Source: a virus. Taken from it: 26,932 bases of DNA. Shown piece by piece: positions 11,195 through 22,725 of this stretch. Position numbers and translations under genes: made by a program. The stretch is taken from positions 1-26,932 of IMG/VR virus record IMGVR_UViG_3300030118_002628; one strand, 5' to 3'. Below the pieces are notes generated by a model. That model worked only from the letters and a program-made list of their open reading frames with translations, was not told the origin of the DNA and made no database searches. Position 1 is the stretch's first letter. Every line of letters begins with the position of its first letter.

Positions 11195-12136
11195 TTAACG
11201 AGCACCTCCTGATACATCATAGATAATTTTTTTCTCTCTTGTCGCTTGTAATATGGCTTCTTGATTAGCTTCATATTCTTTATCTGACATTTTTTGTATT
11301 TGTGATTCTCTAAAATAAGACTCAGATTCATCCTTTTGAGGAACACTTCGATTACTTTTTACCGATTTAGCCGCATCTTTAATCGCATTGTTTGCTTTTG
11401 ATGTGTTTGAAACACCTTTTTCAGTTTTGTATAGATTTATAAGTTTAGCAACAGCTTTTGCATCAGTACTATTCTCATACAATATATCTTGTAGAGCTTG
11501 TGGTAAAGTCTCTGCCCAATCATGAAAAGCATCATCCTGTCTGATCTCAGTATAGTCAGGGTGTAATTTAAGTAATTCTGCTTCGGCTTTTTCTTTGGCG
11601 GCTTCTTCTCGTAGCTTTTCTATTTCAGATAATCTTTTATCAAGTTCTTCTGATCTATTTTTAGATATTTTATCTGCCATTGTATGCATTGTTGCAGCAA
11701 CGTCAGGATATTTTGCTATCCAAGCATCCATTTCTTCTTCACTTTTAGGTAATATTAATTGACTGTTAGTTGCTTTTTTAAGTTGAGACTCTAACTCTTC
11801 AAACCTTTTATTCCACTCTTTTTCTTTAGCAGCAAAGGCTTTTCTAAGATCTGCGTGTCTTTTCTTAAAAGTAGTTTCTTCTCTGGATAGAGGTTGTTCA
11901 TCTGTATCTTTTGTTTTTTCCTCACCATTTTTCTGAGTATCTTCAGAAACAGAGGAAGCATCTTGTTGATTTTCTGTTTTAGACTCCTCTACCTCTTTTT
12001 CTCTTTGTGCAAGTAATTCAGCTAACTCTTTTTCATCTTGATTTATTCTCTCTTGATTAGCCTTATTACCTTTGTTTCTTTCTCTAGATACAAATCCAGC
12101 AACTTTTGATTTTTCTACATTTTCTAATTCTGGCAT
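11195..12136 (-). CDS. Capsid scaffolding protein
   Basis: A 313-residue, highly charged, almost entirely helical protein directly before the coat gene; P22 scaffold is of similar length (303 residues). The N-terminal third is disordered and rich in Glu, Lys, Gln and Ser. A coiled coil follows (KRHADLRKAFAAKEKEWNK and RFEELESQLKKA), then a second Lys/Glu helix (KRLSEIEKLREEAAKEKAEA). A conserved-looking module ELLKLHPDYTEIRQDDAFHD with WAETLP follows, typical of phage scaffolds. The basic C-terminal part (KSVKSNRSVPQKDESE and the final REKKIIYDVSGGAR) would be the coat-binding end. AAGGAG lies before the ATG at 12136. Confidence 0.82.
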   Translation of the reverse strand: MPELENVEKSKVAGFVSRERNKGNKANQERINQDEKELAELLAQREKEVEESKTENQQDASSVSEDTQKNGEEKTKDTDEQPLSREETTFKKRHADLRKAFAAKEKEWNKRFEELESQLKKATNSQLILPKSEEEMDAWIAKYPDVAATMHTMADKISKNRSEELDKRLSEIEKLREEAAKEKAEAELLKLHPDYTEIRQDDAFHDWAETLPQALQDILYENSTDAKAVAKLINLYKTEKGVSNTSKANNAIKDAAKSVKSNRSVPQKDESESYFRESQIQKMSDKEYEANQEAILQATREKKIIYDVSGGAR

Positions 12137-12157: not shown

Positions 12158-13726
12158 TTACTTACGTTTCTTTTTAGACATTAAACCACCTTTTACAAAA
12201 GATATTGGAGCAGTTGCTTTTACACCTTCTGTATATTCTTTAATTTTTTTTGTCTCTTCATCATATTTCTTAGAATCAATATTTAACCTCTTCATATCTC
12301 TTTTTTTAGCTTTCTTTTTTTTGGAAACTTCCTTTACTACATTTGAAACAACATTTTTAGCTTTATCTAAGGCTTGGATTTCAAAACTTCGAGCAGGAGT
12401 GTACCCGCCTTCTCCAGCTAATGCTTGATTATATATTGTTTTTTGCTCGTCAGTTAAGTTCTTATTATTTTTTAGTGAATTATCTATGCTTTCTAAAATC
12501 TTCTTGTGTTGTTGAGCTAACGCAAGAGAAGCTATATTACCTACTATTGGTATTTTAGTGAAAGCATCATCAACACCTATATTAAATTTAGTGTATCCTT
12601 TTAATTGTTTCAAGTATTCATCTATCTCATTTGTTGTAAAATCTCTTCTCCCACCCCCCTTGTCTTCATCAAAGAGTTGCATATTATACCCTAAACTCTC
12701 ATAATATTTTCGTAACTTAGCTACTTGTTTAGCGTCAGATGGATCAATGGGTTTTTTTAATATGTCGCTGGTTATAGGGTCATCATCTTTATCAAACAAA
12801 GAACTCTTCTTTTTTCGTTTAACCTTAGTTTCTGGTGCATCTTCCTCTGTAACTTCCTCTTCTACTTCTGGCTCATAAGGAACAAAGTTAGCTATAGAGG
12901 ATTCTGAATGAGAGACGGGTTTGTCATCCAAAAAGAACACATCAATAATAGAGGACTCATTTATCCCATCCCAATACTTTATAGTACCTTCTCTTTTCTC
13001 TGAGGATTCTACATCACCTCCCTCGTCAAAAGACTGCATAGACTCATCTTTAGGCTCATCCATAGCAACCTCTTCAGTCTGTAATTCTTCGATTGGAAAA
13101 GGTAGGACATTAGACTCTGCTTGTGGTGTATCATCAGTTTCTCCACCTATTCTTCCAGTTGCTTCCATTCTGGCGAGACCCATTTTTGCTTGTGCTCTAA
13201 GGTCTTCAAAAAACTTTAAGCCATAAAATCTTAAAACATCTGCAGGAACAACATACTCGCCCTCACTAAGCATAGCTGGAATATCATCACGGACTTCTTC
13301 TGCTAATGATCCGCTAGGTATTTCATTTCCACTTACAGGGTCTTTATCCAAACCATCATCTATAAATGCCATTTCCATCTGCTCATCCATAACTTGTCCT
13401 CCTTTGTTTTTTGTTAAAGGAGTATTAGTTGCTCCTCCTTCTTTGCTTCTTTTCTTTGCTGCCTCTACAGCAGTCTTAACAGAGTTGTATCTTTTAAACA
13501 TTTTGCCTGTTCTCTCTTCATATTTTTTTGCTTCTTTTTCTGCCCTTTCTCTTGAGAAAAAACTTGGCTCTTTTGTTTTCTCATTGAACCAAATCAATGG
13601 ATAATTTATAAACTTATTAGAGTCATCAAATGCAGGTTCAGACACAGTCACTTCAGTAGCATATTCTTGTCCCATTAATTGAATAGGCTTGTGTTTTTTA
13701 AGATTAAAAGGTTCAAACTCACCCAA
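12158..13726 (-). CDS. Virion-associated accessory protein with KGG-type C-terminus
   Basis: A 522-residue protein starting with TTG at 13726, with GAGGT 8 nt upstream; the first in-frame ATG (13675) has no ribosome-binding site. The N-terminal part includes SFFSRERAEKEAKKYEERTG. The middle has DDGLDKDPVSGNEIPSGSLA, then EEVRDDIPAMLSEGEYVVPA and DVLRFYGLKFFEDLRAQAKM, a block I know from many marine phage proteins of unknown role. It continues as an acidic disordered region and a Lys-rich end, SFVKGGLMSKKKRK. It lies between portal and scaffold, overlaps the preceding gene by 8 nt, and so is probably a virion or ejected protein. The biochemical function is unknown. Confidence 0.75.
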   Translation of the reverse strand: MGEFEPFNLKKHKPIQLMGQEYATEVTVSEPAFDDSNKFINYPLIWFNEKTKEPSFFSRERAEKEAKKYEERTGKMFKRYNSVKTAVEAAKKRSKEGGATNTPLTKNKGGQVMDEQMEMAFIDDGLDKDPVSGNEIPSGSLAEEVRDDIPAMLSEGEYVVPADVLRFYGLKFFEDLRAQAKMGLARMEATGRIGGETDDTPQAESNVLPFPIEELQTEEVAMDEPKDESMQSFDEGGDVESSEKREGTIKYWDGINESSIIDVFFLDDKPVSHSESSIANFVPYEPEVEEEVTEEDAPETKVKRKKKSSLFDKDDDPITSDILKKPIDPSDAKQVAKLRKYYESLGYNMQLFDEDKGGGRRDFTTNEIDEYLKQLKGYTKFNIGVDDAFTKIPIVGNIASLALAQQHKKILESIDNSLKNNKNLTDEQKTIYNQALAGEGGYTPARSFEIQALDKAKNVVSNVVKEVSKKKKAKKRDMKRLNIDSKKYDEETKKIKEYTEGVKATAPISFVKGGLMSKKKRK

Positions 13727-13916
13727 TGTTATTTACCTCGTCTTTCAACTGTTTTAACTTTCTTAGTATATGTATAGATCCTTGTTTTCTCCACATATTT
13801 TGATTATCAGTCGCTTGTTCCATTACTCTATGCTCTTGAGATATTAAATGATCAATATAATTATTGTAATCCTCCCAAAGGTCTTTGTTGTTCACCAATT
13901 TCTTGAGGGGGTTCAT
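13719..13916 (-). CDS. Small helical protein overlapping the portal gene
   Basis: A protein of 65 residues if it starts at ATG 13916 (MNPLKKLVNNKDLW); an upstream ATG at 13952 would give 77. Both starts lie inside the portal gene, which ends at 13861, in a different frame. The body is helical and charged (YIDHLISQEHRVMEQATDNQ, SIHILRKLKQLKDEVN). From memory, similar small proteins follow the portal gene in other marine podoviruses and start at or near the MNP position; this is why the shorter form is chosen. It lacks a membrane segment. A portal-associated or assembly role is possible but not shown. Confidence 0.7.
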   Translation of the reverse strand: MNPLKKLVNNKDLWEDYNNYIDHLISQEHRVMEQATDNQNMWRKQGSIHILRKLKQLKDEVNNIG

Positions 13917-16011
13917 TATTTCTTTGTTCATTTCCTGAGAATCCTTGTTCATTAGGTAAAGGAACTTGACCAGTTCCTATGTTTGCTCCACCTGCACCAG
14001 TGGGATCATTTGGGTTAACCCCTGCAGGAGTCTGTTGACCCTCTTGAGGTTGCATTCGTATATTCATCTCTCGTAGTAACTCAGCTTGTACAGCTGCATC
14101 AGCTAAAGAGTTAGTTAGTTTATCTGGATCTAAGTCCATAGACTTAGCTATCTCTCTAACAATATAATCCATTTTAGCAAAAGGAGCTAAGACAGGATTA
14201 CTAACAACTCCTAAAAATTGCATTAGTCTTTGACTTCTTACCTCGTTTGCCATCAAACTCTCAGTTCCTTGTGCTTTGACCTCAAGATCACCTCGAATCG
14301 CAGGATCAAAATCAAATTGCATATTAAAGCTAAAAAACGCTTTTCCTAAAGGAGCTAATAAGTAGTCATCTATATTTTTAACGACATTTCTAATTGAACC
14401 ATTTGCTGCTGACATTAACATAGATATTCCACTTGCTGTTCTTCCAACTCCTTGAATGCCTGTTTGTCCATGTGCATAAGAAGGAAACCCAGTGCTTTCG
14501 TCAGCCAAAACTCTTGCCTTATCAAATAGTTGCATGTTTTCACCTGCCACATTTGGAAACTTAGTTCCGAATAGAGCTTGACCAGGAGCACCACCTTGTC
14601 TTCTAAATATTTTACCAGGATATACACTCATATCTTGACCTGGAACTAAATTAGTTTCATCTACTTCTATAATAAGATTTCCAGACAAAGCAGCATTATC
14701 AATAGCCATTCTCATGAATCCATTCATAAGTGTCTGTGTATCATCCATATTCTCAGCTATACCAACACCAAAAAAACTATAAGGATTTAATTCGTAAGGA
14801 ACAGCATAGTAAGGAATACGAGTTGGTGTGAAAGGATTTAATACTAAACGAAGAACTTGACCATTACAAACCCAGATATTAACATTTATTTGCTCTAGGT
14901 CTTCCATGTCTTTTGGGATTTCTAAACCATTTTCTTCAAGGATACGGGAATCTACATAACCCCAGAACTCTAAAACTTCATATCTTTCTGTCTTTCCACT
15001 TATGGTTTCATCTTCCATATGTTCTTCCCAGTACTTTCTAGTGTATGCCTCTCCCATATCAATCGCTATATCAATAGACTCGTCCCTAAAATAAGGTCTT
15101 TTCTTTAGGGACCTCAACTGAGAACGAGACATCTTATGTCTTTCCACTACATACTCTACATCATCCATATTATCTGCATCTGGATCAGGATAAAAATTCC
15201 ATATTGAAACATGACTGGTTGAGGGAACAGTTTTAATTAAGGGATCATACTCCCCCTCTTCATTCCAGTTCGGATATTCTTTATCGATTGCAAAGGGACC
15301 TTTCATTATCCCTGTCCCAAACAAAGCCATCTCAAAAGCGGAAAGTCTTAACTGTTTATTAGTTCCTGACTCCTCTAACTGATCATGTATCTTCTTTTCC
15401 ATCTTTTTTGCAGCAATCATAGAAGGGTGAAAAGTAACTTTGCTTCTTGTAGTGCCTTCACCTTCTGTTAATTTTTCAGAAATCGGAGACAGATAATCTT
15501 TTAAATAACTAAGTCTCCCTTCTAAGTCGTCTTCGGTAGCTCCAGCTATATCTACAGGCTCACCTTGATCATTTAATAAAAAAGGTTTTGCTCCAGGGGC
15601 TTCTCTTTTATTCATATCTGATGTAGTATTAGGTGTAATATCAAAATGTGCTGCTTCAGCAACACCATCTGGCAGTATTGTTGGATCTATAGTTAAGGGA
15701 AATCTTGAACTTCCGAATAAAACATCAACTATTTGTCCATAAGCTGCTAATGTTTTGGTTTTTGTTACCTTTATAAACACCCTTGATTTTTCAGCCTCTG
15801 TAAACTGAACATCAGAACCATACAAACCTCTGTAGTTCTTGTAGGCTTTTAACCATCTTTGCTCATCTGTAAATCTCGCATTATCTGCTTTGTTATACTT
15901 TTCTTGAACAAAAGAAACCACTGATGATTCCGATTGTAATGTTTCGTCTTCATTATTAACAGCTTGTACTTCATCTGTGTCAAATAATACTTCATCTTGT
16001 TTAATAGCCAT
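13861..16011 (-). CDS. Portal protein
   Basis: A 716-residue protein, close to the 725 residues of P22 gp1. Portal-like features are EEQRW-type opening helices (ARFTDEQRWLKAYKNYRGLY), VFIKVTKTKTLAAYGQIVDV, the MALFGTGIMKGP-like ALFGTGIMKGPFAID, SIWNFYPDPDADNMDDVEYV, and NAALSGNLIIEVDETNLVPG with YPGKIFRR. The Gln/Pro/Gly-rich C-terminus is disordered. The chosen ATG (16011) starts 1 nt after the TerL stop; a GTG at 16050 in the same frame would add 13 residues overlapping TerL and is less likely. The portal forms the dodecameric vertex ring through which TerL packages DNA. Confidence 0.88.
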   Translation of the reverse strand: MAIKQDEVLFDTDEVQAVNNEDETLQSESSVVSFVQEKYNKADNARFTDEQRWLKAYKNYRGLYGSDVQFTEAEKSRVFIKVTKTKTLAAYGQIVDVLFGSSRFPLTIDPTILPDGVAEAAHFDITPNTTSDMNKREAPGAKPFLLNDQGEPVDIAGATEDDLEGRLSYLKDYLSPISEKLTEGEGTTRSKVTFHPSMIAAKKMEKKIHDQLEESGTNKQLRLSAFEMALFGTGIMKGPFAIDKEYPNWNEEGEYDPLIKTVPSTSHVSIWNFYPDPDADNMDDVEYVVERHKMSRSQLRSLKKRPYFRDESIDIAIDMGEAYTRKYWEEHMEDETISGKTERYEVLEFWGYVDSRILEENGLEIPKDMEDLEQINVNIWVCNGQVLRLVLNPFTPTRIPYYAVPYELNPYSFFGVGIAENMDDTQTLMNGFMRMAIDNAALSGNLIIEVDETNLVPGQDMSVYPGKIFRRQGGAPGQALFGTKFPNVAGENMQLFDKARVLADESTGFPSYAHGQTGIQGVGRTASGISMLMSAANGSIRNVVKNIDDYLLAPLGKAFFSFNMQFDFDPAIRGDLEVKAQGTESLMANEVRSQRLMQFLGVVSNPVLAPFAKMDYIVREIAKSMDLDPDKLTNSLADAAVQAELLREMNIRMQPQEGQQTPAGVNPNDPTGAGGANIGTGQVPLPNEQGFSGNEQRNNEPPQEIGEQQRPLGGLQ

Positions 16012-16012
16012 A

Positions 16013-17581
16013 TTAATATCCAAAGTTAGGGTCTGCTGCTTTAAATCCACCAGTGCTCATTATTGGATTATAATCAAACAGACTGCTTCTAGGTCTTGAC
16101 ATGATGCCATATCTTAAAGCATCATACAAGTGGTCTTCTGCGTTAGTGTTTATATCCTCTGGATTTCTCTTATCCAAAGGTAATGCTGGTAATTGAGAAA
16201 TAATATTAGTGCAGTTATTAAAAAATACTAGTCTAGGCTCATTTGTAAACTCATCAACTTGCAAACGTCTGTGTATTTCATTTTTACCAGATATTCTAGA
16301 TCCTCTACTTCTGTCTGAGGGTCTCCATCTACACCCACGTTGGATCATTTGCTCTGCCAAAGAAGGTCCAGTGTCTCCTCTTTTATGCCACAGACTACTG
16401 TCTAATACACCATAAGCTATCGTTCCATCATCCTTTTCTGCTTCTAATATCATGTCCGCTAAATCTGTAGCTAATACTTTTTGAGTGTAAAGCTCTCTAT
16501 ATACTACAAGTTGTTCATTAGGATTAACTGCAAACCAAACAACACCACTGTAACTACCATAACCATAGTCACAAGCTCTAAATCTCTTCCAGGTTTTAGG
16601 GATATTATAAGGTTGTACAACATGTATTTCTCTATTCCATTCTGTAAAAGCTGCTCCTTCAGCTACATCCCAATCTCCTTCTAATAATTGTCTTCTTTGT
16701 TGTTCAGGCAAAGAAAGTAAATTCATTTCATACTCACCTGATTCTACCAAATATGGGTTGTCAAACAATTTAGCAGGTATAAATCTTCTTTTGAATAAAG
16801 GAGTACCTTCTTTCGAATGACCTTTAGGATATGACAAAACCTTTCCTGTTTCTATGTCTGTAGCGTAAAATGCAGTATTTTCTGGAGCAGGATCTATAAA
16901 CATTTTTTTTACCCACTGATGTCCACTTCCTCCAGGGTTAGTAGTTGCCCTCATGTAAATAGGTAAATCTTTTGCAGCGGTACGCAATCTACTTCTAAGA
17001 TAATTCCAAGCAAAAGGAGTAGACCATTGTGTTAACTCATCAAATCCAATCCAGTTAAATGCTAAACCTTGATATCGTAAGACATCCTCATCTCTATCTA
17101 AATATGAAAACCAAAGTCTTCCTCCTTGAGGACTAACCCATTGCATTTTTCTCTCTGACCATTTAATACCAGGTATTGCTTTTGTATATAATTCTTGTGA
17201 CTTCCAAACTAGTTCTCTTAACTCTTCCGTAGTATGTCTAATTAATAATCCAGAAAATTGAGGGTGAGTTATATATCGTAGAGGGTCGGCTAACATAGCA
17301 AAAGATTTTCCTCCACCTGCACTACCCCCATAGAGAACCTCTCTTTCGGATGAAGCTAGAAATTGGGTTTGAGGACCTTTATTAGGCTCAAATATTACTT
17401 CTCTACCATTATAAGGAAGAGGTTCATCTACTAAATTTTTATTCTGTGTTGGTACAGTCTTCGATTTTGTCGTGAGCTCCGAGTCTGCCTTTTTCGAGCC
17501 TTTCGACTGTCTTGAGTGCTTTTTCGTATCTCTTAACCCATTGACGTTTAATTTTAGCTGTTCCTTTACGCTTTTTTTCAT
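16013..17581 (-). CDS. terL: Terminase large subunit (packaging ATPase/nuclease)
   Basis: A 522-residue protein with all key motors. The adenine-binding segment is GPQTQFLAS (about 69-77), Walker A is GGSAGGGKS (85-93), Walker B is FNWIGFDE (175-182) and the coupling motif is ATTNPGG (212-218). The nuclease acidic residues lie in RACDYGYG (D338), GVLDSS (D394) and EDHLYDALRYG (D483, D487). It cuts and translocates concatemeric DNA into the prohead. The conserved part begins near residue 59. The first 47 residues are basic, low in complexity, and overlap the preceding gene by 143 nt. No ATG, GTG or TTG exists in frame after 17581 until within the ATPase fold, so either this weakly placed ATG is used or the protein is made by frameshifting. 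Confidence 0.92.
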   Translation of the reverse strand: MKKSVKEQLKLNVNGLRDTKKHSRQSKGSKKADSELTTKSKTVPTQNKNLVDEPLPYNGREVIFEPNKGPQTQFLASSEREVLYGGSAGGGKSFAMLADPLRYITHPQFSGLLIRHTTEELRELVWKSQELYTKAIPGIKWSERKMQWVSPQGGRLWFSYLDRDEDVLRYQGLAFNWIGFDELTQWSTPFAWNYLRSRLRTAAKDLPIYMRATTNPGGSGHQWVKKMFIDPAPENTAFYATDIETGKVLSYPKGHSKEGTPLFKRRFIPAKLFDNPYLVESGEYEMNLLSLPEQQRRQLLEGDWDVAEGAAFTEWNREIHVVQPYNIPKTWKRFRACDYGYGSYSGVVWFAVNPNEQLVVYRELYTQKVLATDLADMILEAEKDDGTIAYGVLDSSLWHKRGDTGPSLAEQMIQRGCRWRPSDRSRGSRISGKNEIHRRLQVDEFTNEPRLVFFNNCTNIISQLPALPLDKRNPEDINTNAEDHLYDALRYGIMSRPRSSLFDYNPIMSTGGFKAADPNFGY

Positions 17582-17867
17582 CTTTAATTCTTTTTGTTAA
17601 TCCTACATGTGAAATATATCTTCCTGTTGTTTTCTCTAGCCATCTTGCAACTTCTCTATAACTGTATTGTTTTAAATGTAATTTTGCTTTTTCCAATGCA
17701 TCTAGCTCTAAATCTATTGGAAGTAGCAAAGAATTATCGTTAGGACATACCATATATCCAAAAGGTATCACACTAGTTGATCTAGGTATGGGTAACCACT
17801 TTCTTTTATTTTTGTCATCATTAGGTTCAGGTAACTCCCAAAAACCTAAACTTTCTCTAAAACTCAT
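17439..17867 (-). CDS. HTH protein upstream of terL, terminase-associated
   Basis: A 142-residue protein. The N-terminal half begins SFRESLGFWELPEPNDDKNK and includes PIPRSTSVIPFGYMV. The middle YSYREVARWLEKTTGRYISH with VGLTKRIKDEKKR is a clear helix-turn-helix of the recombinase/terminase-small type. A basic coiled coil follows (KRQWVKRYEKALKTVERLEK). Its stop lies 143 nt inside the TerL frame. It probably binds DNA during packaging. In some phages I recall such a segment being continuous with TerL, so a split or frameshifted fusion is possible. Confidence 0.75.
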   Translation of the reverse strand: MSFRESLGFWELPEPNDDKNKRKWLPIPRSTSVIPFGYMVCPNDNSLLLPIDLELDALEKAKLHLKQYSYREVARWLEKTTGRYISHVGLTKRIKDEKKRKGTAKIKRQWVKRYEKALKTVERLEKGRLGAHDKIEDCTNTE

Positions 17868-18107
17868 CTATTTTCTCTTTGGCTGTCTTTTTCTGTTAAA
17901 TTTTTTACTAACGACTCTTATATTTTTAGGTCTATTATCTAATGGATTCATATTAATATGATCTATTTCTTTTTTATCTCCTTTACGAACAATGCCTTTT
18001 TTCAGTAATTTATTTCGAGCTGAATTTCTAGCAGCTCTACGTTTTTTCTGAACTGGCAAAGCTCCATGAGTATCATATTCTCTGCGATAATTCCTAGTTT
18101 TTCTCAT
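17868..18107 (-). CDS. HNH-type endonuclease domain protein
   Basis: A 79-residue, very basic protein. The C-terminal half KKEIDHINMNPLDNRPKNIR carries the HNH signature (Asp-His at DHINMNPLDN, then Asn, and NIRVVSKKFNRKR). The N-terminal half is an Arg/Lys-rich DNA-binding tail (KKRRAARNSARNKLLKKGIV). It lies between TerS and the HTH protein, directly abutting the TerS gene stop. HNH proteins next to terminase genes often assist in DNA cleavage during packaging. Free-standing homing endonuclease is the alternative. It lacks extra domains, and activity is not proved by sequence. Confidence 0.75.
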   Translation of the reverse strand: MRKTRNYRREYDTHGALPVQKKRRAARNSARNKLLKKGIVRKGDKKEIDHINMNPLDNRPKNIRVVSKKFNRKRQPKRK

Positions 18108-18479
18108 TTAACTTTTTTCATCACTATTCTTAGGAGGTAAAATAAATACACCATTAGGTAGATTTACCTCCATTTTTTCAGTTTTACTATATCCAGTTCT
18201 ATCTAATAAATCTTTTGCTGCTGTCATTTTATCTCTAATGCCTAATTCGGTTGGATCATTTAAAGCATTAGCCATAGAATAAGCAGCACGGGGAGCTACT
18301 CTAGCTAGATAGTCTCTAGTAGCCTCAGATATCTCCTCTTTCATATGACGAATTATATCAGAAGTTTTAGTGCTATCTGCATATCCTGCTAACTTTTTAG
18401 CTAGAACAACGTCCCCATTTGCTTCATCAAAAAGAACTTCTAGTAGCTTTTGTTGTTTTTCAGTTAATTGTTTACTCAT
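18108..18479 (-). CDS. terS: Terminase small subunit (probable)
   Basis: A 123-residue protein. LTEKQQKLLEVLFDEANGDV and VLAKKLAGYADSTKTSDIIR form the terminase-small HTH pattern in which a Tyr-Ala-turn precedes the recognition helix. ATRDYLARVAPRAAYSMANA and GIRDKMTAAKDLLDRTGY follow, the usual helical oligomerisation part. The tail MEVNLPNGVFILPPK resembles TerS C-termini. It would recognise the packaging start and present DNA to TerL. The position four genes ahead of the portal and within the packaging module agrees. Confidence 0.8.
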   Translation of the reverse strand: MSKQLTEKQQKLLEVLFDEANGDVVLAKKLAGYADSTKTSDIIRHMKEEISEATRDYLARVAPRAAYSMANALNDPTELGIRDKMTAAKDLLDRTGYSKTEKMEVNLPNGVFILPPKNSDEKS

Positions 18480-18481
18480 CT

Positions 18482-18733
18482 TTATCTGTACCTAGCTGTT
18501 TTTTTAGCAATTCTTTTAGGTTGTTTAGAGAACTGTTTACCTTGTTGTTTAGCTTTTCGTTTAGCTCTAGAAGTAGCTGCATACTCAGCAGCGGATAAAC
18601 TTTTAATAGCTGCAGTTGGAAGATAACGTTCTCCCGTAGCTTTTTTACCTTGCGTAGAAGGTTTTCCACTTTTAGTTCTCCATTTTTGTTTTGTCCAGTC
18701 TTTTAAAGACTTTTGTGACTTTTTTAGTGCCAT
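18482..18733 (-). CDS. Very basic small protein, DUF5872-like
   Basis: An 83-residue protein with roughly a third Lys/Arg. It reads ALKKSQKSLKDWTKQKWRTK, SGKPSTQGKKATGERYLPTA, AIKSLSAAEYAATSRAKRK and ends QPKRIAKKTARYR. The KSLKDWTKQKWRTKSGKPS motif with GERYLP is familiar from small proteins of unknown role in marine phages and some giant viruses (DUF5872-type, from memory). It starts with a TAATG junction from the gene upstream, indicating coupled translation. A DNA-binding or packaged internal role is suggested by charge alone. Confidence 0.75.
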   Translation of the reverse strand: MALKKSQKSLKDWTKQKWRTKSGKPSTQGKKATGERYLPTAAIKSLSAAEYAATSRAKRKAKQQGKQFSKQPKRIAKKTARYR

Positions 18734-19143
18734 TATCTTCTTTTCATCCTAGTAGAACCTTTTTTAGTCATTCCACCATATCTCATTTTAGTTGCACCTT
18801 TTTTGGTCATACCACCTCGTTGCATTCTAGTAGCCCCCTTCTTGGTCATACCACCCCTTTGCATTCTAGTAGCTCCCTTCTTAGTCATACCACCACGTTG
18901 CATTTTGGTTGCACCTTTCTTAGTCATGCCTCCTCTTTGCATCTTAGTAGCACCTTTCTTAGTCATACCACCTCTTCTCATTTTGGTAGCTCCTTTCTTA
19001 GTCATGCCACCTCCTCTCATTTTGGTAGCTCCTTTTTTAGTCATCCCGCCTTTTGCCATTTTACCTTTACCATCAACTGTAAAAGCAGGGACCATTTTAC
19101 CTGTTTTTTTATCTTTTACCATTGGCATCTTGTGTTTAGTCAT
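18733..19143 (-). CDS. Eleven-residue-repeat KGGMTKKGATK protein
   Basis: A 136-residue protein. The chosen ATG (19143) has TAAAGGAG about 7 nt upstream; the longer frame reaching 19398 is a shadow over the upstream gene. After a short lead (MTKHKMPMVKDKKTGKMVPA, FTVDGKGKMAKGG) the whole remainder is eight tandem copies of GGMTKKGATKM plus R/Q-R, the last being GSTRMKRR. The repeats differ largely by synonymous changes, so protein sequence is under selection. The protein is extremely basic, glycine-rich and probably disordered. Related KGGM motifs occur in other genes here. Function unknown. Confidence 0.78.
   Translation of the reverse strand: MTKHKMPMVKDKKTGKMVPAFTVDGKGKMAKGGMTKKGATKMRGGGMTKKGATKMRRGGMTKKGATKMQRGGMTKKGATKMQRGGMTKKGATRMQRGGMTKKGATRMQRGGMTKKGATKMRYGGMTKKGSTRMKRR
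18740..19048 (-). repeat. Eight 33-bp coding tandem repeats
   Basis: Each 33-bp unit encodes GGMTKKGATKM and two basic or Gln residues. The eight copies are contiguous and in frame, with no indels breaking the frame. Variation falls mainly at third codon positions and at the two variable residues after the Met. Confidence 0.85.
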
Positions 19144-19144
19144 C

Positions 19145-19837
19145 TTAGTCTCCTTTATTATCTTCGTTAGCATACATATTGTTGAATGTTTCCTCTGGGT
19201 CAAGATAACTTTCGTGTATCTCAGCTGCATGAAGAAACTGACTGGGTTTAAAATCTGGTGCACCTTGACCAGTTTCCCATAAAGCAGGACTTGTAGCCCT
19301 AACTCTATTATTTGGTAGGGCAACAATATTACCCTTCCATTCTCCTGAAAGTAATTGCAATACATGACTTTGCTTATGTTGAGCTGCATCATCAGCAATA
19401 TGACTTTCTGTATAATCTACTGTAAACATATACTGAGCAGTAAACCACTCTCCATCTATTTTACATTGCCAAGGACTGGAACTTACTCTTTCCATCTTTA
19501 CTATGGCATGATTATGGGAACTACAATCCCAAGGTTGTGCTAGATAAGTTTCCATTTTCTCTGGGAAATCTTCAAATGACTCATATGTATCATCTGCAAC
19601 TAATGCAGTAATAGGCATTCTTGCCCACATAGCACCCCCATGAACATTATCAGTGTCATAAAACTCACTTTCATTTCCTGTAAATACAACTTGAAAACTT
19701 AAACATCTATCTGGTATTGTATTAACAGCTATGGCATTTGCATGGAGATATTCTCCATGATACTCTTCATGATTATTTGTAAATTCTTTTCTTACCCAAC
19801 ATTTAAAGTAGGGTATATCGCTAATTAAATACGGCAT
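19145..19837 (-). CDS. Conserved-looking globular protein, function unknown
   Basis: A 230-residue protein unlike its basic neighbours, with aromatic-rich globular composition. The opening PYLISDIPYFKCWVRKEFTN and the later GGAMWARMPITALVADDTYE, TYLAQPWDCSSHNHAIVKME and SSPWQCKIDGEWFTAQYMFT are segments I associate with a protein widely present in marine phages, always without known role. Near the C-terminus GEWKGNIVALPNNRVRATSP and ALWETGQGAPDFKPSQFLHA follow. No membrane segment. The start overlaps the preceding stop by 1 nt (TAATG). It could be a virion or host-modifying protein. Confidence 0.75.
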   Translation of the reverse strand: MPYLISDIPYFKCWVRKEFTNNHEEYHGEYLHANAIAVNTIPDRCLSFQVVFTGNESEFYDTDNVHGGAMWARMPITALVADDTYESFEDFPEKMETYLAQPWDCSSHNHAIVKMERVSSSPWQCKIDGEWFTAQYMFTVDYTESHIADDAAQHKQSHVLQLLSGEWKGNIVALPNNRVRATSPALWETGQGAPDFKPSQFLHAAEIHESYLDPEETFNNMYANEDNKGD

Positions 19838-20136
19838 TATGATTTCTTCCTTTCGTTTTCTCTTTTAAGTTGTAATTTTGCTTGTTTGGCTAGTCGGGCA
19901 ACCTCCATTTTGCCCATAACTTTAGCTCTTTGTTCTAAAACAGTTAGTATTTGTATTTTTCTTGCATAAGGTTTTCTTATTCTTTTTACTTTTGCTATAG
20001 TGTCTTTCGTATCCTTAACTGTAGCAAACTTAATACTGACTGTATCTTTTGGATTTTCATCCGTATACAGCCTTCTACCACTTCCTTTAGGTTTTTTACC
20101 TGTACCTACTTTTGGATCTGGTTTTTTTCTTGCCAT
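19837..20136 (-). CDS. Basic small protein (KKPKGSGRRLYTDENPKDTV family)
   Basis: A 99-residue basic protein. A Lys/Gly/Pro-rich lead (RKKPDPKVGTGKKPKGSGRR) is followed by LYTDENPKDTVSIKFATVKD and RKPYARKIQILTVLEQRAKV, ending in a Lys/Arg-rich helix. The GSGRRLYTDENPKDTV and KPYARKIQILT segments recur in marine phage and some eukaryotic-virus small proteins, as I recall. The role is not known. It is coupled to the next gene by TAATG. Confidence 0.75.
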   Translation of the reverse strand: MARKKPDPKVGTGKKPKGSGRRLYTDENPKDTVSIKFATVKDTKDTIAKVKRIRKPYARKIQILTVLEQRAKVMGKMEVARLAKQAKLQLKRENERKKS

Positions 20137-20158
20137 GTCTTAGCTGCCTTTAAACATA

Positions 20159-20446
20159 TTAATTTCTGTAGCCTCCGCCTTTTGCTTTGTATTCTCTGGC
20201 TAACATTTGTGCTTTTCTTGCTGACCATTGACCAGCACCTCCACCTTTTGTACCCGCTTTAATTTTATTAAATAAATTCTTACGCATTGTGGGTTTTGTA
20301 TAATTACCTGCTTTATTAACTGTGCTACCTCCTTTATTTAATTTTATAGCAGAAAGTTTTTTTGCTTGACTAGCATGGGCTTTACTTGCTTTTTTTAGTT
20401 TAGAAACTACAGTTTTAATAGCTTTTTTTGCTTGTTTTTTCTTCAT
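20159..20446 (-). CDS. Basic small protein with GGGAGQWSARKAQ motif
   Basis: A 95-residue protein with an N-terminal Lys/Ala helix (KKAIKTVVSKLKKASKAHAS), an NKGGSTVNKAGNYTKPTMRK segment, and a C-terminal GTKGGGAGQWSARKAQMLAR with EYKAKGGGYRN. The GQWSARKAQ-EY-K-GGGY end is a recurrent module in phage and giant virus small basic proteins. Highly basic with no acidic clusters, consistent with nucleic-acid binding or packaging with the genome. It begins at a TAATG junction. Role unknown. Confidence 0.75.
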   Translation of the reverse strand: MKKKQAKKAIKTVVSKLKKASKAHASQAKKLSAIKLNKGGSTVNKAGNYTKPTMRKNLFNKIKAGTKGGGAGQWSARKAQMLAREYKAKGGGYRN

Positions 20447-20718
20447 TATGATGCCACCTTTATAACTACACTCGCTATTATTATAACGACAATAGCTACA
20501 ATCGCTATATTTGTTGTCGTAAATTTAGATTTATTTTTACTGAAATCTAAAGGTTCTTTGAGTTTTTGTTCATATGCTTCATTAACATTAGGAGTTGCAG
20601 GATTATCTGCTTTAAAATGTCCTTTAGTGTTTCTAGCCCTTTTTAATTTTTTAGTAGTCGTAGCTTTTTTAGCTGTTACTTTAGTTTTGTTTTTAACTTT
20701 ATTTTTTTTATTTACCAT
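20446..20718 (-). CDS. Basic small protein with C-terminal membrane segment
   Basis: A 90-residue protein. The N-terminal third is Lys/Thr-rich (NKKNKVKNKTKVTAKKATTT), followed by RARNTKGHFKADNPATPNVN, then a polar stretch. The C-terminal membrane helix (NIAIVAIVVIIIASVVIKV) lies at about residues 69-87, a tail-anchored layout with the basic part likely in the cytoplasm. It is embedded in the run of basic small genes. Function unknown; possible roles are membrane tethering of DNA or a lysis accessory. Confidence 0.75.
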   Translation of the reverse strand: MVNKKNKVKNKTKVTAKKATTTKKLKRARNTKGHFKADNPATPNVNEAYEQKLKEPLDFSKNKSKFTTTNIAIVAIVVIIIASVVIKVAS

Positions 20719-20722
20719 AATA

Positions 20723-21022
20723 TCACCATTTCACTTTATGTGCCCAATATCTAGCTGAAAATTTATCAGGATTTTTATCTTGTGCATCATGCCTTGCATA
20801 ATAACTTTTTCTTCTAGCTTTATCTTTAGCTGTTTTTGGATTTTTCCCAGCCCCTCTAACGCCTTGTTGCCCAAATCGTATTACTTTTAGTTCGTGGGTT
20901 TTAGATTTTTCAGCTACAACAATATGAGATTTTGTTTTGTGACTAGGAGTTCTTTTGGCTTGATTCGTTTTTGATAAGCCATATTTTTTAAGTAGAGCTT
21001 TTTTACGATCTGAGTGTGGCAT
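20723..21022 (-). CDS. Basic small protein ending in ARYWAHKVKW
   Basis: A 99-residue basic protein, opening PHSDRKKALLKKYGLSKTNQ. Its core is ELKVIRFGQQGVRGAGKNPK followed by ARRKSYYARHDAQDKNPDKF and the end SARYWAHKVKW. The RFGQQGV and the SYYARHDAQ / SARYW-HKVKW blocks are recognisable from marine phage and giant-virus small proteins of unknown function. AGGA lies 7 nt upstream of the ATG. The 55-bp gap ahead of it is the widest within the basic-gene run and is AT-rich without a clear promoter. Confidence 0.75.
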   Translation of the reverse strand: MPHSDRKKALLKKYGLSKTNQAKRTPSHKTKSHIVVAEKSKTHELKVIRFGQQGVRGAGKNPKTAKDKARRKSYYARHDAQDKNPDKFSARYWAHKVKW

Positions 21023-21077
21023 CCATATATCCTAATATTCTGTAGTTATATCTAAATACTTTTTAATTACAAGTTAA

Positions 21078-21428
21078 TTATGCAGTTGTTACTTTTGGCA
21101 CTTCAATAAAAGAAGCAACCACATGAATTCTATTTGCTGTTCCTGCTGTAACCTTTAAAATATCAGCAGAGGTCAATATTAACTCATTTGTCAATAATTC
21201 TAGTGTTCCTTTCGCACCTATTGCCTTATCTTTATAAATACTGAAAACATCTGATCCATTTGTCAATGTTAATGTGATTGTATCTGCATTACCACTATCC
21301 TCAGATACTAAAATAGAAGTTACAAAAGTATCCATTAAACTAGGACAAGTATACAAAGTTGTTACATCTGTTGTTGTTAAGTCTAACTTTGCATTTTTAT
21401 ATCTTGATGTTCTTAATACATTAGCCAT
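21078..21428 (-). CDS. Beta-rich virion protein candidate
   Basis: A 116-residue protein with alternating strands (VTTLYTCPSLMDTFVTSILV, ADTITLTLTNGSDVFSIYKD, LTSADILKVTAGTANRIHVV) and few charged residues, resembling a small beta-sandwich decoration or fibre protein. The TYTCPSLMDTFVTSI / DILKV / HVVASFIEV pattern parallels that of the fibre-cluster protein at 3477-3869. It stands between the lysis genes and the basic-protein run, far from the fibre genes. Role inferred from fold only. Confidence 0.7.
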   Translation of the reverse strand: MANVLRTSRYKNAKLDLTTTDVTTLYTCPSLMDTFVTSILVSEDSGNADTITLTLTNGSDVFSIYKDKAIGAKGTLELLTNELILTSADILKVTAGTANRIHVVASFIEVPKVTTA

Positions 21429-21441
21429 TAACTATACTCTA

Positions 21442-21645
21442 TTAGTAAGAATCTTCCAAAACACAATCAAGCTGCATTGTATAGAATAAATTATTCTCAT
21501 GTCTTTTCCAATTATCTTCATTAATAAGTTTTTGACACTCCTCAAACGTAAAATACTCTTTCATAACATACTGATTACCTGTATATTCCCACTGAGTTCC
21601 ATTATAACCCCAAACACTAATTAATAACAAATAAATCTTCATCAT
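21442..21645 (-). CDS. Small exported or membrane-anchored protein next to endolysin
   Basis: A 67-residue protein with a short hydrophobic N-terminus (MMKIYLLLISVWGYNG) that looks like a signal or anchor, then a polar, aromatic, Cys-containing domain (YVMKEYFTFEECQKLINEDN, FYTMQLDCVLEDSY; two Cys). It overlaps the endolysin stop by 4 nt (ATGA), so is co-translated with it. A spanin-like or periplasmic lysis accessory is possible, but no lipobox or long coiled coil is present to support this. Confidence 0.7.
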   Translation of the reverse strand: MMKIYLLLISVWGYNGTQWEYTGNQYVMKEYFTFEECQKLINEDNWKRHENNLFYTMQLDCVLEDSY

Positions 21646-22094
21646 GACAATTCAAAATGAGGACCATCAATAAAAGGTCGTCTTCCTTGACTGCGTCTTA
21701 AATCAATATATTGATTCATAACCTCTTCCATACTGTGATTCGTATCAGCTATATTGTTAACATGCCAAGCTGCTCCCCAACGTACACTTACATTCTCTAC
21801 TTTTGCAGCTTCTTTCATGGCATCCGCTATGTCATCATATAAATTTAACTCCCATGAAGCTCTTCCTGCTACATATGCCATTAAATCAACAGCTAACCCA
21901 TCAATATGCTTTGATTTTAGTGTTTGAGAAGCTCCTTTTTCAACTAGAGCCTTCTGTTCAGCCATAGTTCTTAAACCGCAGATCACTCCAAAATCTACTT
22001 TTGTCTCTTTTATGGCTCTTTTTACAACTTTTACAAGTTTATTGTTAACACCTTTTAATCTATCTTGGCTTTTTGTTGATAATTTAAATGTCAT
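21642..22094 (-). CDS. Endolysin, peptidase M15-like (D-Ala-D-Ala / L-Ala-D-Glu peptidase)
   Basis: A 150-residue protein with the M15 zinc-peptidase motifs: SKHIDGLAVD (residues 61-70, zinc-binding His63 and Asp70) and GPHFEL near the C-terminus (third ligand His146, with Glu148 nearby). The GVICGLRTMAEQKALVEKGA stretch (about 36-55) is the usual lead into the fold, and the length is typical for a single-domain phage lysin. It would cut the peptide part of peptidoglycan and is released by the holin encoded upstream. It overlaps both neighbours by 4 nt. No signal peptide, so it depends on the holin. Confidence 0.88.
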   Translation of the reverse strand: MTFKLSTKSQDRLKGVNNKLVKVVKRAIKETKVDFGVICGLRTMAEQKALVEKGASQTLKSKHIDGLAVDLMAYVAGRASWELNLYDDIADAMKEAAKVENVSVRWGAAWHVNNIADTNHSMEEVMNQYIDLRRSQGRRPFIDGPHFELS

Positions 22095-22255
22095 AGTTTA
22101 TTTCCTTTTTGTTTTGTATTTCCTAATCTACGTTGGTCTTCTTTTTCTTTACATGGGATACATACACTATTAACTTTCCGAAATTTTTTCGTCTTGTATG
22201 TATATACATTAAATATTTTTACCTCTTGTTTGCAAATAGGGCATTTTGGTGGCAT
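22091..22255 (-). CDS. 54-residue zinc-ribbon protein
   Basis: A short ORF starting at ATG 22255 and ending in a TGA that overlaps the endolysin start (ATGA), supporting real coupled translation. It contains two Cys pairs, CPIC (residues 5-8) and CIPC (32-35), separated by 23 residues, a four-Cys zinc-ribbon layout. The remainder is basic (KTKKFRKVNS, KEKEDQRRLGNTKQKGNKL). It would bind zinc and perhaps nucleic acid. The family is not identified. Confidence 0.72.
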   Translation of the reverse strand: MPPKCPICKQEVKIFNVYTYKTKKFRKVNSVCIPCKEKEDQRRLGNTKQKGNKL

Positions 22256-22262
22256 TTAACAT

Positions 22263-22568
22263 CTATGATTTGGATGTTAACGTCACAAATCGTCCTCTTC
22301 TGCCTTGATTTTCTCTTCTTTGTCCTCTAAATGTCATTCCACCTCCATAAAACATACCTGTTTTACGATAATCCTTCATCATACCACCTTTATTCATTGA
22401 TAATCCAGTTGTTGGATTAATTTTTTTCTTGTTACCCATCATCATACCCCCTATATTTGCCTTTTTTGTAGCATTTTTTGTTTTTTTAGAAGGTTTTTCC
22501 ATTATTCCTACAGCAATTACAATTTCTGCTGCTGCTTTTTTTGACTTAGAATCGGATTTATGTTTCAT
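22263..22568 (-). CDS. KGGM-motif basic protein
   Basis: A 101-residue protein. The preferred ATG (22568, MKHKSDSKSKKAAAE) has AAGGAG about 10 nt upstream; an alternative start 11 codons earlier (22601) gives 112. It is rich in Lys, Gly, Met and Arg, with GGMMMGNKKKINPTTGLSMN, KGGMMKDYRKTGMFYGGGMT and a final GQRRENQGRRGRF. The NKGGMMK motif parallels the repeat protein at 18733-19143 and the C-terminus of the 522-residue protein at 12158. Its 5' end overlaps the preceding zinc-ribbon gene by 11 nt. Function unknown. Confidence 0.72.
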   Translation of the reverse strand: MKHKSDSKSKKAAAEIVIAVGIMEKPSKKTKNATKKANIGGMMMGNKKKINPTTGLSMNKGGMMKDYRKTGMFYGGGMTFRGQRRENQGRRGRFVTLTSKS

Positions 22569-22725
22569 CTTTTTTTTTCTCCTTGTTCGGTAAGTATACA
22601 TCTACATGACAATCACATTTTGGACAACTTAAATTTGTTAATTGACAATAATAATCACTTTCTTTCTCGTTTATCTCTCTAGTGCCACCCCAAATAAGTT
22701 CTGTTTTACAATGCCAACATCTCAC
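22558..22725 (-). CDS. 55-residue zinc-ribbon protein with GTG start
   Basis: The frame starts with GTG 22725 overlapping the holin stop as GTGA, a normal coupling junction. The protein has CWHC (residues 3-6), Cys27, and CPKCDC (34-39), a zinc-ribbon arrangement, and a Lys-rich C-terminus (YLPNKEKKKDET). Together with the 54-residue gene at 22091 it gives two tiny zinc-ribbon genes within the lysis cluster. Function unknown; a nucleic-acid-binding or structural zinc knuckle is the likely type. Confidence 0.7.
   Translation of the reverse strand: MRCWHCKTELIWGGTREINEKESDYYCQLTNLSCPKCDCHVDVYLPNKEKKKDET

Follow-up and report, generated by a model that had tools for sequence, protein, structure and literature searches.

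We identified a short linear motif, G-[GL]-[LM]-[LMVA]-x-[KR]-[KR], that recurs in HMO-2011-type phages on a number of late proteins that are otherwise unrelated. The starting point was a window (the whole stretch of DNA analysed) of 26,932 bases, a contig that is a virus record in itself, and most of the comparative evidence comes from its relatives. Forms of the motif include GGLMSKKKRK in the 12158 gene product, GLMARRK in a second protein, which we call IPG, and KGGMTKKGATKM. We propose that it serves as a docking tag through which several unrelated late proteins would bind one partner and be brought into the head as cargo, a reading to which we give a probability of slightly under one half (about 0.48). 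The conservation of the motif is observed; its job is what these sequences suggest. We treat the role as a well-founded hypothesis rather than a finding because the tail is missing in many family members, the window does not include the IPG region, and the literature searched held no virion proteome of HMO-2011-type phages.

The late module of the window lies on the minus strand and contains a holin (phrog_3427), an M15 endolysin, a block of small genes, an HNH gene, the terminase genes and the portal gene, as well as the 12158 gene, a scaffold-like protein, the major head protein (phrog_267) and tail genes. The portal protein shares 63-70% identity with its counterparts in Puniceispirillum phage HMO-2011 and the nearest Roseobacter phages (CRP-x), the closest IMG/VR relative stands at 86% identity, and the late genes are ordered as in HMO-2011 and the CRP phages. 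By these sequence comparisons the window is therefore a contig of an HMO-2011-type phage, a dominant and broadly distributed marine group (PMC9038755). The 27-kb contig stops short of the replication module (DnaJ-type CxxCxGxG DNA polymerase) and before the IPG region; IPG data thus come from relatives. The coat protein was assigned to phrog_267, a family of phage major head proteins (E 1e-62), and the M15 peptidase to endolysin families; no prohead protease family was matched among the head genes of the window. Eight small late proteins encoded between 17868 and 22601 have net charges of +16 to +42 and pI values of 10.5-12.0. The product of 20446-20718 is basic with a single hydrophobic C-terminal segment, probably membrane-spanning. 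The scaffold-like protein (11195-12136; L031:5330-6454 in a relative) has a conserved end of its own, (I/V)YD(I/V)SGGAR. The features discussed below, with genes named by their lowest coordinate, are these:

12158..13726, minus strand: LSEGEYVVPAD-type late gene, the second gene downstream of the portal gene; orthologue in L477 at 72% identity
12161..12193, minus strand: DNA encoding the C-terminal tag KGGLMSKKKRK, followed by the stop codon TAA at 12158-12160
13142..13342, minus strand: DPVSGN..LSEGEYVVPADV..IGG domain; outside it and the tail, no part of the 12158 protein is strongly conserved
13388..13405, minus strand: in-frame AAAGGAGG plus ATG, encoding KGGQVM; homologues begin at the equivalent MDEQ/MNEQ
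13861..16050, minus strand: portal protein (SU10_portal), the reference point of the comparisons, with 63-70% identity to the portals of HMO-2011 and the nearest CRP phages
18733..19143, minus strand: small, strongly basic repeat protein, 136 aa, net charge +42; true start ATG at 19143
18742..19053, minus strand: eight tandem 39-bp units encoding the 13-residue [KRYG]GGMTKKG[AS]T[KR]M; pN/pS between units 0.14
20159..20446, minus strand: basic phrog_17747 protein; its KGGGYRN end is a domain feature and is left out of the shared tag
22263..22601, minus strand: small basic protein, 112 aa, net charge +26, containing NKGGMMKDYRKTGMFYGGGM; related proteins in L002 and L189
22338..22394, minus strand: NKGGMM..TGMFYGGGM motif pair in the 22263 gene

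The preliminary description had assigned a KGG-type signature to four late proteins, those of genes 12158, 18733, 20159 and 22263. The peptides that it quoted are all present in the named genes, but they are not all one thing. The signature holds up in three of the four genes, as the C-terminus of the 12158 protein, the repeats of 18733 and the motif pair of 22263. The KGGGYRN of 20159 is instead the conserved C-terminus of phrog_17747 (E 1e-34), whose members in 17 phage records have endings much alike. Nor is KGG the core: what is conserved is G-[GL]-[LM]-hydrophobic-x-[KR]-[KR], most clearly at C-termini. In within-protein shuffles of the window's genes, with the repeat gene omitted, KGG occurred 10 times against 2.5 expected (0 of 1000 shuffles reached 10), NKGG three times against 0.12, and KGG[ML] twice against 0.24 (P 0.03), while the looser [KRYG]GG[MLVG] was found in four proteins against 1.9 expected (P 0.11). 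On these statistics, the KGG excess within the window alone is real but modest. The Pfam KGG family (stress-induced acidophilic repeat, GsiB/YciG type) likewise has Lys-Gly-Gly repeats in small basic proteins, but its unit differs and none of the four proteins matched it at E values up to 1. Searches of the motif proteins against Pfam and PHROGs gave nothing informative beyond phrog_17747, phrog_14910 and weak repeat matches.

The 12158 gene may give products of 522 aa (from TTG 13726), 505 aa (ATG 13675) or 410 aa (internal ATG 13390). The extreme C-terminus is FVKGGLMSKKKRK, and the same tail is present in four relatives (L477, L002, L081, L421). In the family alignment, conservation is seen in the LSEGEYVVPAD domain and in the tail but not in the middle. 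An AlphaFold prediction of the 12158 protein with six sequences had a mean pLDDT of 46, a value that shows only that the tail is not confidently folded. The protein has a net charge of -15. The NKGG cited for this protein, the only one that it contains, has another explanation, an in-frame Shine-Dalgarno sequence ahead of the start codon of the homologues. Its codons (AAC AAA GGA GGA CAA GTT ATG) read as AAAGGAGG-ACAAGTT-ATG, with the Shine-Dalgarno 7 nt before the ATG, and 13388-13405 is thus probably an internal ribosome binding site and start. The gene would then yield a longer and a shorter product, of which only the longer has the N-terminal domain resembling part of phrog_938 (endolysin-like). 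The DPVSGN..IGG domain resembles a stretch of the tape-measure family phrog_3547. Some tape-measure-like proteins likewise contain LSEGEYVVPAD-like and KGG stretches (L179, L156; ORFs of 3432 and 1560 aa; phrog_3547 match), hinting at an element shared between podovirus internal proteins and tape measures.

Among complete ORFs behind the portal gene in related loci, 33 of 59 end in a GG[LMF] tail, followed in almost all by basic residues; examples are NKGGLMQKKKKKK, KEGGLASKKKTKKKK and NKGGLVERPTK. These tailed ORFs fall into two whole-protein families, the LSEGEYVVPAD protein and a second portal-adjacent family, and the 200 residues preceding the tails form 10 groups with no detectable similarity. 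The tail is missing from the other 26 metagenomic ORFs. Most isolates also lack it on their post-portal LSEGEYVVPAD protein. The one exception is CRP-9, in which the tag is found on the IPG protein, the LSEGEYVVPAD protein and a KGGM protein.

The IPG protein is a further carrier, unrelated to the 12158 protein. It has about 170 aa and an IPGxSLT..RPWQ.PPQY signature, and its gene lies directly before two large ORFs. GLM[AS][RK] ends 66 of 73 unique metagenomic sequences, or 70 when looser forms are allowed. G165-L166-M167 are invariant columns across 55 aligned sequences, although these were picked for a near-terminal GLM and the 66 of 73 is the unbiased count. The tails of isolates are GLMARRK, GGLMSRRT, GGLMARRA and RGLMARG. 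A hypervariable acidic linker precedes the tail; AlphaFold predicts a helical core with pLDDT above 90 and a disordered linker (pLDDT 42-51). The fold had no match in the PDB (best E 1.8) and one significant viral match, a 183-residue protein, and the sequence matched no family in Pfam or PHROGs. The small ORF directly upstream carries GL[LM]x[RKP] in mid-protein in 54 of 75 loci, and 51 of 145 small ORFs at IPG loci contain this pattern compared with one after shuffling. In pelagiphage HTVC115P, orthologues of window genes 20159 and 18482 adjoin IPG and two large internal-type genes. IPG and its neighbors are labelled putative internal proteins by gene order only. HTVC115P gp46 (L360:5006-5455), annotated as a toxin-activating lysine-acyltransferase, also lies in this neighborhood, near lysine-rich small proteins.

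The third group of carriers comprises small proteins built largely from KGGM repeats. Relatives of the 18733 protein, with the arrangement KDPKTGKM-PAF-DGKGKM-KGGM, are present in L009, L011, L103 and L158. Across 80 related loci, [KRYNQGA]GGM was found in 41 ORFs, chiefly small basic proteins with MKKKGYAKGGM-like repeats, and KGGM/GYAKGGM repeats fill small, strongly basic proteins in many aquatic phages. In viral contigs at least 120 stretches matched GYAKGGM, compared with 21 for a scrambled heptapeptide, and there were 90 matches in 257 billion bases of cellular genomes. It is in frame within an ATG-started ORF at all 117 of 117 loci, in many different proteins, a few of them long and tape-measure-like. 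A tblastn search of isolates with the repeat protein and the GYAKGGM tail returned no match, likely owing to the low-complexity filter. Tiny proteins of 45-50 aa consist almost wholly of RGGM/RGGGM-like repeats (L339:8533-8670, L082:45346-45498, L331:11971-12114), and the tiny RGGM-type protein of HMO-2011 is missing from the annotation of its record. Many GYAKGGM proteins (L099, L114, L127, L160 and others) terminate in another conserved sequence, RADG(I/C)A.(R/K)GKT(R/K)G.(M/I), and others in RG.G.A.RG...K; these endings are further C-terminal tags. The KGGM repeats and GGLM tails are likely one motif, as suggested by the intermediates FNRGGMVKKRKK and KGGMVDMRTTGLFR.

It is possible, though not probable, that the small KGGM proteins are low-complexity proteins that condense DNA or RNA through Gly-Tyr-Lys-Met stickers, being packaged or acting on nucleic acid, and that their likeness to GGLM tails is coincidental. 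The eight late proteins at net +16 to +42, among them those of 18733, 20159 and 22263, would fit such a role, as would the Gly/Lys/Tyr-rich composition of the GYAKGGM repeats. However, the Gly-Leu/Met core also ends acidic proteins (12158 at net -15; IPG behind its acidic linker), so that binding to DNA alone, one of the possible partners named in the preliminary description, does not explain the core. Basic charge would also not require GGM at fixed spacing with a pN/pS of 0.14.

An improbable account is compositional convergence, in which Gly/Lys/Met-rich disordered tails recur independently and share no partner. Many carriers do appear disordered and of low complexity, and KGG by itself is just modestly enriched in the window. 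Against this, composition-preserving shuffles were exceeded about 15-fold at C-termini: among 780 non-redundant HMO-type ORF products, 32 had GG[ML][MVAI] within their last 20 residues, where 2.2 were expected (14.8-fold). In the same 780 products the reversed tetrapeptide was not enriched and an acidic control pattern reached 2.4-fold. The IPG GLM tail, moreover, is preserved beyond a hypervariable linker. Relatives infecting Sinorhizobium, Vibrio, Pseudoalteromonas and Aeromonas showed no clear C-terminal excess of the pattern (2 versus 0.7 expected). Since shuffle tests leave shared ancestry in, clustered and unique counts were used. For GGLMxKK (Leu as TTA), 49 of 69 in-frame cases had the pattern no more than 20 residues from the C-terminus, a count that carries supporting weight only; its reversed control, KKxMLGG, was contaminated by another conserved phage tail. 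Because that control was not clean, C-terminal position alone is weak evidence, and we used the counts of unrelated carriers instead. The tail recovered by the control, TILTSGxGVDEEAETKKTMLGG / RSSTILTTADGLEDDELTTKKKMLGG, sits on small proteins of about 70 aa in L479-L592 (for example, L491:479-703 and L500:8203-8418).

A tag for lysis or the membrane, or a C-terminal regulator of stability (degron or anti-degron), seems more improbable still. The C-terminal placement and the proximity of several carriers to the endolysin and holin genes would suit it, but the strongest carriers sit beside the portal, scaffold and internal-type genes, and the motif lies inside the protein both in the repeats and in the small ORF before IPG. 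We consider a cleavage site for a head-maturation protease very improbable. In T4-like phages, unrelated head proteins that the prohead protease cuts typically share short sites. Most of the tail sites are near the C-terminus, though, where cutting would achieve little, and the head genes of the window gave no prohead protease match, the M15 peptidase belonging with endolysins; this lack of a match also makes a protease an unlikely partner, contrary to one of the original suggestions. Finally, we dismiss the idea that a nucleic-acid signal, either a Shine-Dalgarno sequence or recombination repeats, happens to be translated as KGG: it accounts for one cited case, the internal NKGGQVM of 12158, but codon data refute a Shine-Dalgarno origin for the tails and repeats, where Gly-Gly codons are mixed, GGAGG is rare (3 of 22 in the tails, 4 of 138 at GYAKGGM sites), and the eight 39-bp units of 18733 differ mostly silently (pN/pS 0.14). 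Judged by these silent differences and mixed codons, the motif unit is selected as protein and not as a DNA or RNA signal.

A common signal on unrelated late proteins, acting through one partner, is thus the part of the preliminary description best supported by the comparative data, but with a different core and with 20159 removed. A fixed core with a basic end, placed on flexible tails of several unrelated late proteins in one phage group, has the form expected of a docking peptide. The carriers also neighbor the portal, scaffold and internal-type genes, and the HTVC115P orthologues adjoin IPG; from these features we propose a head-loading tag. The tag would bind one partner in the young head, which may be the inner capsid face, the portal or the inner core, and through this binding proteins that are internal or ejected would enter the assembling particle, the tailed 12158 product being one of these putative cargoes. 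The 18733 repeat protein and the 22263 protein may be multivalent versions of the tag, their positive charge perhaps holding partner and DNA together.

The closest likeness in form is to encapsulin targeting peptides, which are C-terminal (for example, GGDLGIRK) and bind an HK97-type shell on its inside (PMC10960027). Family 1 peptides (GGDLGIRK, GSLGIGSLR, LTVGSLRR) resemble the tag in being short, mostly C-terminal and Gly-Leu-hydrophobic-basic, are common to unrelated cargo and dock inside a shell related to phage capsids (PMC10960027). The resemblance is one of form only: the phage coat here is of family phrog_267 and not an encapsulin, docking here is proposed from sequences, and encapsulin cargo has no within-protein repeats, whereas the phage tag would have repeated versions. 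The T4 capsid targeting sequence is N-terminal and is removed by the prohead protease. In contrast, the tag is C-terminal or internal, and the window's head genes gave no match to a prohead protease. The likeness to T4 is that its diverse internal proteins, taken into the head core, have only a short targeting signal in common (PMC3012670), as do the unrelated carriers here. The tag therefore belongs to neither class, there being no encapsulin shell and no N-terminal cleaved signal. T7 gp6.7 and gp7.3 are likewise small late proteins encoded near the portal, and gp6.7 is annotated as injected from the virion; neither contains a GGLM or KGGM motif. The row of T7 genes 14, 15 and 16 (internal proteins gp14-16) resembles IPG and its two large ORFs.

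A broader proposal, which we consider unlikely, is that one docking code serves at least five unrelated late proteins of marine and freshwater tailed phages and represents a new general head-loading route. The carriers would be the post-portal tails, the IPG tail, the pre-IPG peptide, and the repeat proteins of KGGM and GYAKGGM type. One common virion protein with a pocket for the peptide would load internal or ejected proteins, and the repeat proteins would act as multivalent adaptors. The majority of HMO-2011-type late proteins have no known role. If the proposal is true, the tag would group such proteins into one assembly pathway and make virion cargo recognizable from sequence alone. It would also bear on how podovirus-like heads take up internal proteins, in a form strikingly like encapsulin cargo loading.
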